This document shows, piece by piece, positions 8,265 through 14,448 of a DNA stretch of 36,024 bases (the stretch's first letter is position 1; each line of letters begins with the position of its first letter). A program made the translations under genes and the position numbers. The stretch comes from Alphaproteobacteria bacterium (GTDB lineage Bacteria > Pseudomonadota > Alphaproteobacteria > Sphingomonadales > Sphingomonadaceae): assembly GCA_030431875.1 (NCBI GenBank), contig JAUIIG010000028.1, positions 1 to 36,024 of the forward strand. The letters run 5' to 3'. A model generated the notes under the pieces. The model was given only the letters and a program-made list of their open reading frames with translations, was not told the DNA's origin and made no database searches.

Positions 8265-8912
8265 ATGCGTAAGACGATTCTGGCCGTCGCTGCCGCTTCT
8301 GCCATTGCCACCGTCGGTGTCAGCGGGCTCAATGCCCAGGCTGGCCCCGAAGCCGAAGGCATGGACGCAAGCGCCGTTGCCTCGGGCACCTATTCCACCG
8401 ATCCGGGCCACTCGCTGGTCGGCTGGCGCCTCGATCACCTCGGTTTCAACGACTACTTCGGCATTTTCGGCGACGTCACCGGCACGCTGGTGCTGGATAC
8501 GGACAACCTCTCCAATTCCACCGTCGACGTAATGATCCCGATGAACAACCCCACGGTTGCCAGCGCCGGCCTGCGTGACCACCTGCTGCGCCCCGGTGCG
8601 GAAGGCGCCGATCCCGACTTCTTCGGTCCGGAACCGGAAGCTGCGCATTTCGTGTCGACGTCCGTCCACCAGACCGGTGACACGACCGCGCACATCATGG
8701 GCGACCTCACCTTTAACGGCGTCACCAAGCCGGTGACGATCCAGGCCGAACTGTCGGGCATGGGTACCAACATGATGAGCCAGAAGCCCACCGTTGGCTT
8801 CCACGGCACCACGACGATCAACCGTTCGGAATGGGATTTCGGTTGGGGCATCCCATTCGGCATCGGTGACGAAGTCGAACTCGACATCACCGTCGCTTTC
8901 GAACTGCAATAA
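8265..8912 (+). CDS. YceI family periplasmic lipid-binding protein
   Basis: A 215-residue secreted protein. It has a signal peptide of about 26 residues (MRKTILAV... ending near LNAQA) and a YceI beta-barrel domain starting near residue 43 with YSTDPGHSLVGWRLDHLGFNDYFGIFGDVTGTL. Internal GDLTFNGVTKPVTI and the ending GDEVELDITVAFELQ are typical. Members of this lipocalin-like family bind isoprenoids or other amphiphiles in the periplasm, and some respond to acid or osmotic stress. The ATG at 8265 is preceded by GGGAG. It stands alone, flanked by an inverted repeat upstream and a strong terminator downstream, so it is probably monocistronic. Confidence 0.92.
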   Translation: MRKTILAVAAASAIATVGVSGLNAQAGPEAEGMDASAVASGTYSTDPGHSLVGWRLDHLGFNDYFGIFGDVTGTLVLDTDNLSNSTVDVMIPMNNPTVASAGLRDHLLRPGAEGADPDFFGPEPEAAHFVSTSVHQTGDTTAHIMGDLTFNGVTKPVTIQAELSGMGTNMMSQKPTVGFHGTTTINRSEWDFGWGIPFGIGDEVELDITVAFELQ

Positions 8913-8931
8913 CAGCCTCCGAGCACGAAAC

Positions 8932-8967
8932 ACGGGCGCAGCGCCAAAATGGCCTGCGCCCGTTTTC
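8932..8967 (+). terminator. rho-independent terminator after the YceI gene
   Basis: ACGGGCGCAG (8932-8941) pairs perfectly with CTGCGCCCGT (8954-8963), and the stem runs into TTTTC. It isolates the YceI gene from the leuA leader that follows. Confidence 0.85.
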
Positions 8968-9008
8968 ATGTCTGGACCTGTTAACCAATCGTCCCTAAGT
9001 ACTTTTGC

Positions 9009-9056
9009 ATGACGCAGGCCTACAGCCTAATCCTGCTGCGACTTACACGCCCTTAG
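9009..9056 (+). CDS. leuA leader peptide (attenuator peptide, 15 residues)
   Basis: A short frame, ATG 9009 to TAG 9056, encodes MTQAYSLILLRLTRP. Four of its 15 residues are leucine, encoded CTA, CTG, CTG and CTT, with one isoleucine among them. It lies 122 bases before leuA, the leucine-pathway entry gene, and its stop codon falls inside the arm of a stem. This is the layout of amino-acid attenuators, where ribosome stalling at Leu codons under leucine shortage alters folding of the leader RNA. No clear ribosome site precedes the ATG (only CTAAGTACTTTTGC), so translation may be weak or leaderless. It is inferred from sequence; expression is untested. Confidence 0.75.
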   Translation: MTQAYSLILLRLTRP

Positions 9057-9173
9057 GCGTGCCATTTGCCCTGCGCGTCTGGCAGGGAACACTCCTAAGG
9101 GCTGATCCACCACAAGGTTGATAAATCCGCGCCGGGCCTTGCCGTGCGCGTCGAAGTTGCAAAAGGCTGTTTT
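9046..9173 (+). promoter_or_regulatory. leucine attenuator: competing hairpins ahead of leuA
   Basis: Several pairings share bases. Hairpin A is CACGCC (9046-9051), loop CTTA, GGCGTG (9056-9061). Hairpin B is GCCCTTAGG (9049-9057) with CCTAAGGGC (9094-9102), a perfect nine-pair stem that excludes A. CCCTG/CAGGG lies inside B. Downstream, GCCTTGC (9136-9142) can pair with GCAAAAGGC (9159-9167) with two bulged As, followed by TGTTTT: a possible terminator covering the leuA ribosome site. CAAGG (9113-9117) can pair with CCTTG (9137-9141) and would disrupt it. The leader peptide ends inside A and B. Pairings are read by eye; the terminator stem is the weakest part. Confidence 0.65.
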
Positions 9174-9177
9174 CGAA

Positions 9178-10875
9178 ATGCCCATGTTGTCCGATCCCTC
9201 GGCCAAGTACCGCCCCTTCCCGCAGGTCCCCTTGCCGGACCGGCAGTGGCCTTCGCGCACCATCACCGCCCCGCCCCGCTGGCTCAGCACCGATCTGCGT
9301 GATGGTAACCAGTCGATCATCGATCCGATGGACCGCGCCAAGAAGACGCGCTTCTTCGACCTGCTGGTGGAAGTGGGCGTGAAGGAAATCGAGGTCGGCT
9401 TCCCCGCAGCGGGCCAGACCGAATTCGATTTCATATCGTGGCTGGTGCAGTCCGAACGCGTGCCCGAAGACGTGGTGATCCAGGTCCTCACCCAGTCGCG
9501 CGAAGACCTGATCAAGCGCAGCTTTGAAAGCCTTGAAGGCGCGCACTCGGCCATCGTCCACCTCTACAACGCGGTCAGCCCGGCATGGCGCGATATCGTC
9601 TTCCGCATGAGCAAGGACGAGGTAAAGCAGATCGCCATCAATGGCGCACAATTGCTGGTGGACGAGGCTGCCAAGCGTCCCGACACCAAGTGGCAGTTCG
9701 AATATTCGCCCGAAACCTTCTCTACCGCCGAGCTCGATTTCAGCCTGGAAGTGTGTGAAGCGGTGATGAAGGTCGTCGGCCCTACCAAGGACTGGCCGAT
9801 CATCCTCAACCTGCCGGCGACGGTTGAGGCAGCAACGCCCAACATCTACGCCGACCAGATCGAATATTTCTGCCGCAACCTGCCCAATCGCGATGCGGCC
9901 GTCATCTCGCTTCACACCCATAACGACCGCGGCACCGGTGTTGCTGCTGCCGAACTCGGCCTGATGGCGGGTGCAGACCGCGTTGAAGGCTGCCTGTTCG
10001 GCAATGGCGAGCGGACCGGCAACTGCTGCCTCGTGACCGTGGCGCTGAACATGTACACGCAAGGTGTCGATCCGGGCCTCGACTTCTCCGACATCGACAA
10101 GGTGATCGAGACGGTGGAATACTGCAACGAACTGCCCGTCCACCAGCGCCACCCCTACGGCGGCGAGCTGGTGTTCACGGCCTTTTCCGGCAGCCACCAG
10201 GACGCCATCAAGAAGGGTTTCGAAGCCCACGAAAAGCAGAACGACCAGAACTGGAAGGTCCCCTACCTGCCCATCGACCCGGCAGACCTTGGCCGCGATT
10301 ACGAAGCGGTCATCCGCGTCAACTCGCAGTCCGGCAAGGGCGGCTTTGCCTGGGTGCTGCAGCAGGACCAGGGCCTGAAGCTGCCCAAGAAGTTGCAGGC
10401 ACACTTCTCCAAGCACGTCCAGTACATGGCCGACAGCCAGGGTCGTGAACTCAACGCTGCCGACATCTGGGACTGCTTCAAGCAGACCTACTACCTCAAG
10501 GTCGAGAAACGCCGCTTCCGCCTGGTCGACTACGACGAACGCCGCGCCAACGACGGCTCGCGCGTCTTCGCCGGCACTATCGAGGTGGACGGCGTGCCGC
10601 AGCAGGTATCCGGCCGCGGCAAGGGCCTGATCTCGTCGGTGCTGGCGACAATCCGCGAGACCTACGGCCTCGATTTCGAAGTGCTCGACTATTCGGAACA
10701 CGCCCTTGGTGGCGGCGTCGATGCTCGCGCGGCAGCCTATATCGAATGGTCGCTGCCCGATGGTCGCTCCGGCTGGGGTGTTGGGATTGACGAGGACGTG
10801 GCAACGGCCAGTGTCCGCGCCATCCTCTCTGCCGCCAACGGTGCGTCGCACGGTCCCGGCACGCCGCGGTTCTAG
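9178..10875 (+). CDS. leuA: 2-isopropylmalate synthase
   Basis: Condenses acetyl-CoA with 2-oxoisovalerate, the first committed step of leucine synthesis. The 565-residue protein has the DRE-TIM/HMGL-like domain with the metal-binding STDLRDGNQS (about residues 38-47), HTHNDRGTG and GNGERTGNCCLVTVALNM. A C-terminal LeuA allosteric dimer domain follows (about 430-560), where leucine normally binds. I chose the ATG at 9178 (MPMLSDPSAKYRPF); an ATG six bases later is also possible, and a TTG at 9118 would run through the attenuator. Control is probably double: feedback inhibition of the enzyme and attenuation in the leader. The TAG overlaps the stop of the converging AHH gene in CTAG. Confidence 0.96.
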   Translation: MPMLSDPSAKYRPFPQVPLPDRQWPSRTITAPPRWLSTDLRDGNQSIIDPMDRAKKTRFFDLLVEVGVKEIEVGFPAAGQTEFDFISWLVQSERVPEDVVIQVLTQSREDLIKRSFESLEGAHSAIVHLYNAVSPAWRDIVFRMSKDEVKQIAINGAQLLVDEAAKRPDTKWQFEYSPETFSTAELDFSLEVCEAVMKVVGPTKDWPIILNLPATVEAATPNIYADQIEYFCRNLPNRDAAVISLHTHNDRGTGVAAAELGLMAGADRVEGCLFGNGERTGNCCLVTVALNMYTQGVDPGLDFSDIDKVIETVEYCNELPVHQRHPYGGELVFTAFSGSHQDAIKKGFEAHEKQNDQNWKVPYLPIDPADLGRDYEAVIRVNSQSGKGGFAWVLQQDQGLKLPKKLQAHFSKHVQYMADSQGRELNAADIWDCFKQTYYLKVEKRRFRLVDYDERRANDGSRVFAGTIEVDGVPQQVSGRGKGLISSVLATIRETYGLDFEVLDYSEHALGGGVDARAAAYIEWSLPDGRSGWGVGIDEDVATASVRAILSAANGASHGPGTPRF

Positions 10876-14241: not shown

Positions 14242-14316
14242 GGCCCCTTCGTCTAGCGGTTAGGACGCGGCCCTTTCACGGCTGAAACACGGGTTCGATT
14301 CCCGTAGGGGTCACCA
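14242..14316 (+). tRNA. tRNA-Glu (anticodon TTC), CCA encoded
   Basis: The 75-base gene folds with acceptor arms GGCCCCT/AGGGGTC, anticodon loop CTTTCAC giving anticodon TTC, the T-arm CGGGTTCGATTCCCG, and an encoded CCA at 14314-14316. It reads GAA (and, with a modified wobble base, GAG). A promoter lies just upstream. Confidence 0.97.
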
Positions 14317-14373: not shown

Positions 14374-14448
14374 GGCCCCTTCGTCTAGCGGTCAGGACGC
14401 GGCCCTCTCACGGCTGAAACACGGGTTCGATTCCCGTAGGGGTCACCA
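14374..14448 (+). tRNA. tRNA-Glu (anticodon CTC), CCA encoded
   Basis: Nearly identical to the first tRNA-Glu 57 bases upstream. I find only two differences: a T-to-C in the D loop and a T-to-C in the first anticodon base, making CTC, which reads GAG. CCA is encoded at 14446-14448. It probably arose by tandem duplication and shares the upstream promoter. Confidence 0.97.

Follow-up and report, generated by a model that had tools for sequence, protein, structure and literature searches.

In enterobacteria, the attenuator of the leu operon (leuL) combines a short Leu-rich peptide, rare Leu codons, and alternative stems. In Alphaproteobacteria, the trpL (rnTrpL) attenuator also places a leader peptide before an amino-acid gene and is leaderless in S. 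meliloti; it differs from the leader considered here in being devoted to tryptophan and in having a transcription terminator, and the accessible text of the papers describing it mentions no leuA leader (PMC7298713, PMC10117765). The closest known system is the actinobacterial LEU element, which precedes leuA (Seliverstov et al. 2005, PMC1262725) and is described as having a leader peptide with Leu codons, a base stem that joins the run of Leu codons to the Shine-Dalgarno region of leuA, and, inside this stem, a conserved pseudoknot. Since published mutations misfit classical attenuation, that paper favoured a protein-binding site (PMC1262725). In S. lividans, the corresponding leader leuL1 (MRFGLLLLSCRGEGL) is described as leaderless and lacking a typical Rho-independent terminator (PMC8079986). 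A search of the accessible open-licence literature turned up no description of such a leader for leuA in Alphaproteobacteria.

Here, we address a candidate of this kind in a member of Sphingomonadaceae (assembly GCA_030431875.1, contig JAUIIG010000028.1). The window, i.e., the whole analysed stretch of 36,024 nucleotides, contains the following features.

8973..9001, + strand: promoter-like site TGGACC-17 nt-TAAGTA, a pattern match ending 7 nt before the leader ATG
9009..9056, + strand: leader peptide gene MTQAYSLILLRLTRP, ATG at 9009, stop TAG at 9054-9056
9022..9044, + strand: 5' strand of the base stem, the Leu-codon stretch, composed of 9022-9028 (ACAGCCT) and 9037-9044 (TGCGACTT); from the fold and coevolution with the region before leuA
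9046..9061, + strand: stop-codon hairpin P0, CACGCC/GGCGTG, arms 9046-9051/9056-9061; alternative to P1, with covariation of 9047/9060
9049..9057, + strand: 5' arm of hairpin P1, containing the leader stop codon in the window; from the fold, conservation, and compensatory changes
9069..9087, + strand: inner hairpin in the P1 loop, arms 9069-9074/9082-9087, predicted from the window fold alone
9094..9102, + strand: 3' arm of P1, from the fold, conservation, and compensatory changes; extended by 9090-9092 with 9059-9061
9154..9170, + strand: 3' strand of the base stem, 9154-9161 with 9037-9044 and 9164-9170 with 9022-9028; from the fold and coevolution
9162..9167, + strand: likely leuA Shine-Dalgarno site AAAGGC, predicted, partly within the base stem
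9178..10875, + strand: leuA, 2-isopropylmalate synthase of "type 2" (TIGR00970, 818.6 bits vs. cut-off 697.4)

The leader frame of 15 codons includes CTA at 9027, CTG at 9033 and 9036, and CTT at 9042, and its stop is separated from the leuA start by 121 nt. The minimum-energy fold of 9009-9186 contains P1 with its extension, the inner hairpin, and the long-range base stem including part of AAAGGC. The 178-nt segment 9005-9182 is more stable than its shuffled versions (z = -2.77; 2 of 200 shuffles equally stable), and conservation of the leader in relatives is the stronger evidence that the arrangement exceeds chance. Screening the window with Rfam 15 (4227 models) at gathering scores returned only two tRNAs and nothing at the leader, while 30 leuA loci searched at E up to 1 gave three matches, none of them at the leader. 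Two closely spaced tRNA genes occupy positions 14242-14313 and 14374-14445 of the window. In L082, from a genome of the same genus, a terC RNA (RF03067, 57.7 bits) lies at 417-477 of the minus strand, about 0.9 kb upstream of the leader.

The sample of type-2 relatives was composed of the best 80 of at least 594 named genome loci plus 30 more taken from a set of 149 genomes belonging to the family; in 137 of these 149 genomes, the LeuA search gave a match, type-1 genes included. After removal of three duplicates from these 110 loci, 107 distinct ones were retained, and one of them (L008, having a run of N and no P1) was left out of structure counts (n = 106). An earlier note, made from the sequence of the window, had proposed that leuA is preceded by a leader peptide with four Leu codons, among them CTA, which was expected to be rare. 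This proposal is borne out, as the leader frame is found in every one of the 107 loci, encoding 13-21 residues with 2-6 Leu per peptide, and its nearest in-frame start is ATG in 106 cases and TTG in one. The motif LRLxRP occurs near the leader end in 104 loci (variants are L008, L022, and L110); 31 leaders end with Arg-Pro immediately followed by the stop (RP-stop, the group of the window), and the remaining 76 run on, mostly to RPWA-stop. Within five window genes, CTA and CTT account for 3 and 21 of 221 Leu codons and CGA for 3 of 152 Arg codons. Leaders keep CGA in 106/106 and CTT in 99/106 cases, and with these fixed CGA CTT codons set aside, 127 of their 357 Leu codons are CTT and 56 are CTA, Leu constituting 36% of all leader codons. 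Third codon positions are the most variable ones in all three groups of leaders, which together with the enrichment of rare Leu codons argues for a coding leader; such a strong codon bias would fit the selective charging theory (PMC1183508).

This coding character also bears on the idea that the conserved segment is primarily a binding site for a regulatory protein, as was proposed for the actinobacterial LEU element, with the peptide frame being secondary. Very strong conservation of CGACTTA..CGCCC at the nucleotide level speaks in its favour, as does the fact that several type-1 loci across the class have no evident nearby ATG for the leader frame. In Sphingomonadales, however, the frame, the stop, Leu richness, and third-position variability are kept as in a coding gene, and the stop shifts by two or three codons among leaders with the frame unchanged, so that we consider a protein site unlikely.

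Hairpin P1 is present in 106 of the 107 type-2 loci, the exception being L008, where a run of N breaks it. The leader stop begins within the P1 5' arm in 31 of 106 loci, namely those with RP-stop ends, and at least one base past the arm in the other 75. Over 101 model-aligned rows, 99.5% of 808 P1 cells are standard pairs and 42 cells have double-sided changes against 13.3 in shuffles, in an alignment that was fitted to the structure and where three of eight pairs never vary. Alignment A3, drawn from 100 chosen sources and fitted to the P1 structure, contains one spurious antisense row (L021). At the P1 position of the A in TAG, 31 of the 106 loci have A, always with T as its partner, and 75 have G, with C as partner in 74; placed on the LeuA tree, the two positions underwent 4 and 5 changes, concordant in three of three independent pairs, which are too few for significance alone. 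For P0 in the RP-stop group, base 9047, a synonymous third position, and base 9060 form a Watson-Crick pair in 26/31 and a G-T pair in 4/31 loci. These bases changed 9 and 8 times on the tree, and among 6 independent pairs 3.8 on average were concordant, none opposite, and 2.2 without change (median p 0.125, no significance alone). The P0 pair also holds in 14/14 type-1 loci with the same core. As P0 and P1 share 9049-9051, they are mutually exclusive, and compensatory changes occur in both, in agreement with the alternative stems that the earlier note had placed around the stop. That note had staked its reading on conservation of the Leu-rich frame and of the stems in relatives, and both were found to be conserved. 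Speculatively, P0 in competition with P1 might pace the ribosome or the polymerase.

Another supposition of the earlier note was that the pairing at 9136-9167 with TGTTTT could end transcription and cover the leuA ribosome site. The 5-bp outer stem GCCTT/AAGGC preceding TGTTTT does exist, but scanning of 8900-9200 reported neither a terminator-like site nor a promoter, and at least five T in the 8 nt after P1 were encountered in only one of 106 relatives, with a run of four T before leuA in 15/106. Intrinsic termination is therefore unlikely, and the site was rejected as an intrinsic terminator. Two hallmarks of trp/leu-type attenuators were found at this locus, i.e., the leader ORF with regulatory codons and mutually exclusive RNA stems, and an intrinsic terminator before the gene was not. 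Classical transcription attenuation, where the ribosome on the leader chooses between P1 and the terminator at 9136-9167 with TGTTTT, would make use of its usual parts (leader peptide, Leu codons, and exclusive stems), and the 5-bp stem before TGTTTT may be counted for it, but scarcity of T-runs and the outcome of the scan make it improbable. A leader devoid of a terminator is compatible with Rho-dependent attenuation, in which, as in the tna operon, Rho would be kept from loading between the leader and leuA by a ribosome that has stalled or is terminating there, and the Pro-stop end of RP-stop leaders, which resembles the end of TnaC, may be counted for it as well. Nevertheless, the 76 type-2 leaders that run on have no Pro-stop end, and coevolution of the leader strand with the region before leuA (see below) would be left unexplained, so that involvement of Rho looks rather unlikely.

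As for the transcript start, the top-scoring TTGACA/TATAAT-like pair in a 50-nt range stops 6-8 nt short of the leader ATG in all 26 Novosphingobium-type loci and 6-9 nt short of it in 29/31 RP-stop loci, being scattered in the other 49, with this spacing scored without a null model. In the window, the same scoring prefers a site whose end is 16 nt upstream of the ATG, and TGGACC-17-TAAGTA with its distance of 7 nt was chosen by the spacing in neighbours L043 and L002. If this promoter-like site is used, the transcript would start approximately at the leader ATG rather than downstream of 9056, and a leaderless leader mRNA is plausible.

The relation between the Leu codons and the leuA ribosome site was evaluated by pairing the 36-nt Leu-codon stretch with 35 nt before leuA and comparing the own pairing of each locus with that to sites of other species, after collapsing similar loci (31 to 17, 75 to 62, 74 to 56, and 18 to 17). 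In the RPWA type, the own base stem reaches -17.09 vs. -13.45 kcal/mol for swapped sites (10.0 SD, n = 62), and own pairing is better by 6.1 SD in type-1 loci of other orders (n = 56), by 2.9 SD in type-1 Sphingomonadales (n = 17), and by 2.1 SD (p = 0.019, n = 17) in the RP-stop group of the window, the weakest of all. Controls taken from the stretch upstream of the leader stay within 1.1 SD, save one (-2.2 SD, p = 0.016) in type-1 loci of other orders. Against dinucleotide shuffles, z values of the base stem are -1.40 for RPWA, -0.63 for type 1 of other orders, and -0.91 for type 1 of Sphingomonadales; in the window's RP-stop group, the base stem is not significant by this measure (z -0.42, p = 0.11), and the reversed-sequence control scores better (-0.90). 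An earlier test, pairing the CGACTT region with the whole spacer, was weak, giving p < 0.05 in 24/106 type-2 and 2/19 type-1 loci. In column covariation (MI with APC), a P1 pair came out on top for RPWA loci and base-stem pairs were not ranked high, perhaps because spacer length drifts. Taken as a set, the groups support a base stem that joins the run of Leu codons to the Shine-Dalgarno region of leuA.

Consequences of a ribosome halted on the leader were assessed by partition-function folds, with access to the leuA site expressed as mean unpaired probability with or without a blocked codon. Blocking the Leu codon before CGA raises access from 0.32 to 0.53 (n = 31) and from 0.36 to 0.48 (n = 75); access becomes 0.48 and 0.41 when the last Leu codon is blocked, 0.33 and 0.34 when the stop codon is, and 0.33 and 0.37 under a control mask, respectively. 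The window itself, with 0.36 when free and 0.74, 0.77, and 0.74 upon blocking the Leu codon before CGA, the last Leu codon, and the stop, deviates from the average in that a ribosome at the stop codon is predicted to open the leuA site much as one at a Leu codon does. In L082 of the same genus, the corresponding values are 0.0 for the free state, 0.42, 0.0, and 0.01.

The leader, its hairpins, compensatory changes, base pairing, and coevolution are results of computation. Given that the region of Leu codons pairs and apparently coevolves with the Shine-Dalgarno region of leuA, translational attenuation is favoured, and we lean towards a leucine-responsive leader controlling leuA mainly at the level of translation as the probable, though by no means assured, reading of these sequences; ribosome stalling, the direction of the response, and the translational level of control are what we infer. 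According to the proposed scheme, transcription would start at about the leader ATG, as promoter spacing implies, so that ribosomes would load at the 5' end and read the 15-codon peptide rich in rare Leu codons. With plentiful leucine, the ribosome would finish and leave, P1 would close, the stretch of Leu codons would thereby come close to the ribosome site of leuA, and pairing of the two would render leuA poorly translated. Upon shortage of leucyl-tRNA, the ribosome would stall on Leu codons and occupy this strand, so that the leuA ribosome site would remain open. Sensor codons would thereby serve as the anti-Shine-Dalgarno strand themselves, making a terminator unnecessary. In comparison with leuL, the Leu-rich peptide with rare Leu codons and alternative stems are shared. 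The leader considered here differs in having no recognizable intrinsic terminator, in the location of its stop within or next to an arm of the main hairpin, and in the pairing of its Leu codons with the region of the ribosome site. A leader that merely raises leuA translation by reinitiation, with no sensing of leucine, was also weighed. The leader stop and the leuA start are on one strand, and reinitiation at leader peptides has been proposed (PMC4833913); the leuA start, however, lies 121 nt after the stop, and neither rare Leu codon enrichment nor coevolution of the base stem would find an explanation, so that this variant is very improbable.

The earlier note spoke of a specific case in this lineage, which turned out to be too narrow, as the leader extends across the order and a related version of it occurs in further orders of the same class. 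Model R1, built from 29 type-2 leaders (alignment A1, with 17 further minus-strand loci left out when choosing rows), found one match per genome in 179 of the 296 genomes searched within the order, and all 50 of the listed matches that were compared precede leuA by 35-96 nt. That R1 has a single match in the window genome fits the supposed independence of this leader from that of ilvB. In genus g77, G077 and G145 have no LeuA match and the 14 listed genomes no leader match, which may reflect a possible loss of leucine synthesis. One locus titled as actinobacterial (L072) has LeuA 75% identical to that of the window and a Novosphingobium-like leader, and perhaps represents a mislabelled bin.

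The leader is not restricted to type-2 genes. Type-1 LeuA proteins are only 25-28% identical to the window LeuA, and the four type-1 genes checked all score above the TIGR00973 cut-off; the leader precedes 19 of 20 type-1 loci fetched from Sphingomonadales. The sole fetched type-1-like locus without it (L180), in which the gene closely follows another, may by eye be a paralogue. Among 12 leader-bearing type-1 loci inspected over 7 kb, six have ilvC and yceI upstream in the order and on the strand of the window, yceI being so placed in seven, ilvC in eight, and neither in two. Finding both leuA types at a shared address, each preceded by this leader, points to in-place replacement of leuA with retention of the sensor, the alternative being that the leader was copied.

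Outside the order, 25 of 30 loci with type-1 leuA contain CTTA..(G/A)CCCCTGA together with a matching 3' arm, and 24 of these 25 related frames end with Pro-stop (LxxP-stop, 11 of them xRP-stop), usually after LR or LL. Model R2 was derived from these loci (25 found, 24 aligned in A2, with L221 dropped) and includes no row from Sphingomonadales. It found matches in 127 of the 385 genomes searched in the class, among them G103 (7.0e-7) and G014 (5.3e-5) of the window genus, and gave no match in the window's own genome. Of 69 genomes with type-1 leuA, 44 have an R2 match (24 supplied the R2 rows and 20 are new) and 25 have none. As to position, 44 of 47 compared matches precede leuA by 66-427 nt on its own strand and the other three are weak; leuA coordinates came mainly from R2-matched genomes, so that this comparison describes where matches are located and not the rate of leader absence. 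Five further matches comprise four before leuA and one (G538) not at the known type-2 copy of its genome. Across the phylum, 57 of 299 genomes were matched, 54 of them within the class and three outside it at E 0.002-0.005. Since the leader accompanies type 1 in many orders, type-1 leuA may be suggested as its older partner. For type-2 leuA outside the order (L184-L210, 420 nt upstream), CGACTT is present in 23 of 27 loci and occurs twice or more in 14, with 0.16 expected per shuffled sequence; these tandem sites mostly correspond to two successive, soon stopping putative frames, LRLTxP-like and LRLIGGRxA-like.

A separate set of 14 plasmid-borne leuA loci (L148-L161) contains Leu-rich leader-like frames in ten, some recognized by eye: L148-L151 of Actinobacteria, L153, L154, and L156 of Rhizobiales, L155 of Cupriavidus, L157 of Tistrella, and L158 of Sphingomonas. 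No leader-like frame was seen in L152, L159, L160, and L161. The six actinobacterial plasmid loci thus have the frame in four (L148-L150 by script and L151 by eye) and not in L152 and L160.

Resemblance to the actinobacterial LEU element includes the position before leuA, several Leu codons, and the base stem, which is observed across the groups and is not significant by shuffles in the RP-stop group of the window. The two differ in phylum and in the peptide end, which is LLLLSCRGEGL in S. lividans and LRLxRP here. Inside its base stem, the LEU element has a pseudoknot, and the hairpins seen here in that place are the alternatives P0 and P1. Mutated Leu codons in the actinobacterial leader would, by analogy, break the base stem too. 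We therefore put forward, as a tentative proposal that may well turn out otherwise, that a leucine sensor which is ancestral, undescribed, and free of a terminator is common to Alphaproteobacteria, with Leu codons acting as the anti-Shine-Dalgarno strand, and that this sensor was kept through in-place replacement of leuA, was doubled in some orders, and shares its architecture with the LEU element of Actinobacteria. An Rfam family could be seeded with models R1 and R2. If the proposal is true, puzzling results on actinobacterial leuA leaders would gain a possible explanation, the locus would exemplify a regulatory leader retained while the gene behind it changed its type, and leucine synthesis would have a widespread and uncatalogued regulator with the simple rule that sensor codons are the strand opposing the ribosome site.
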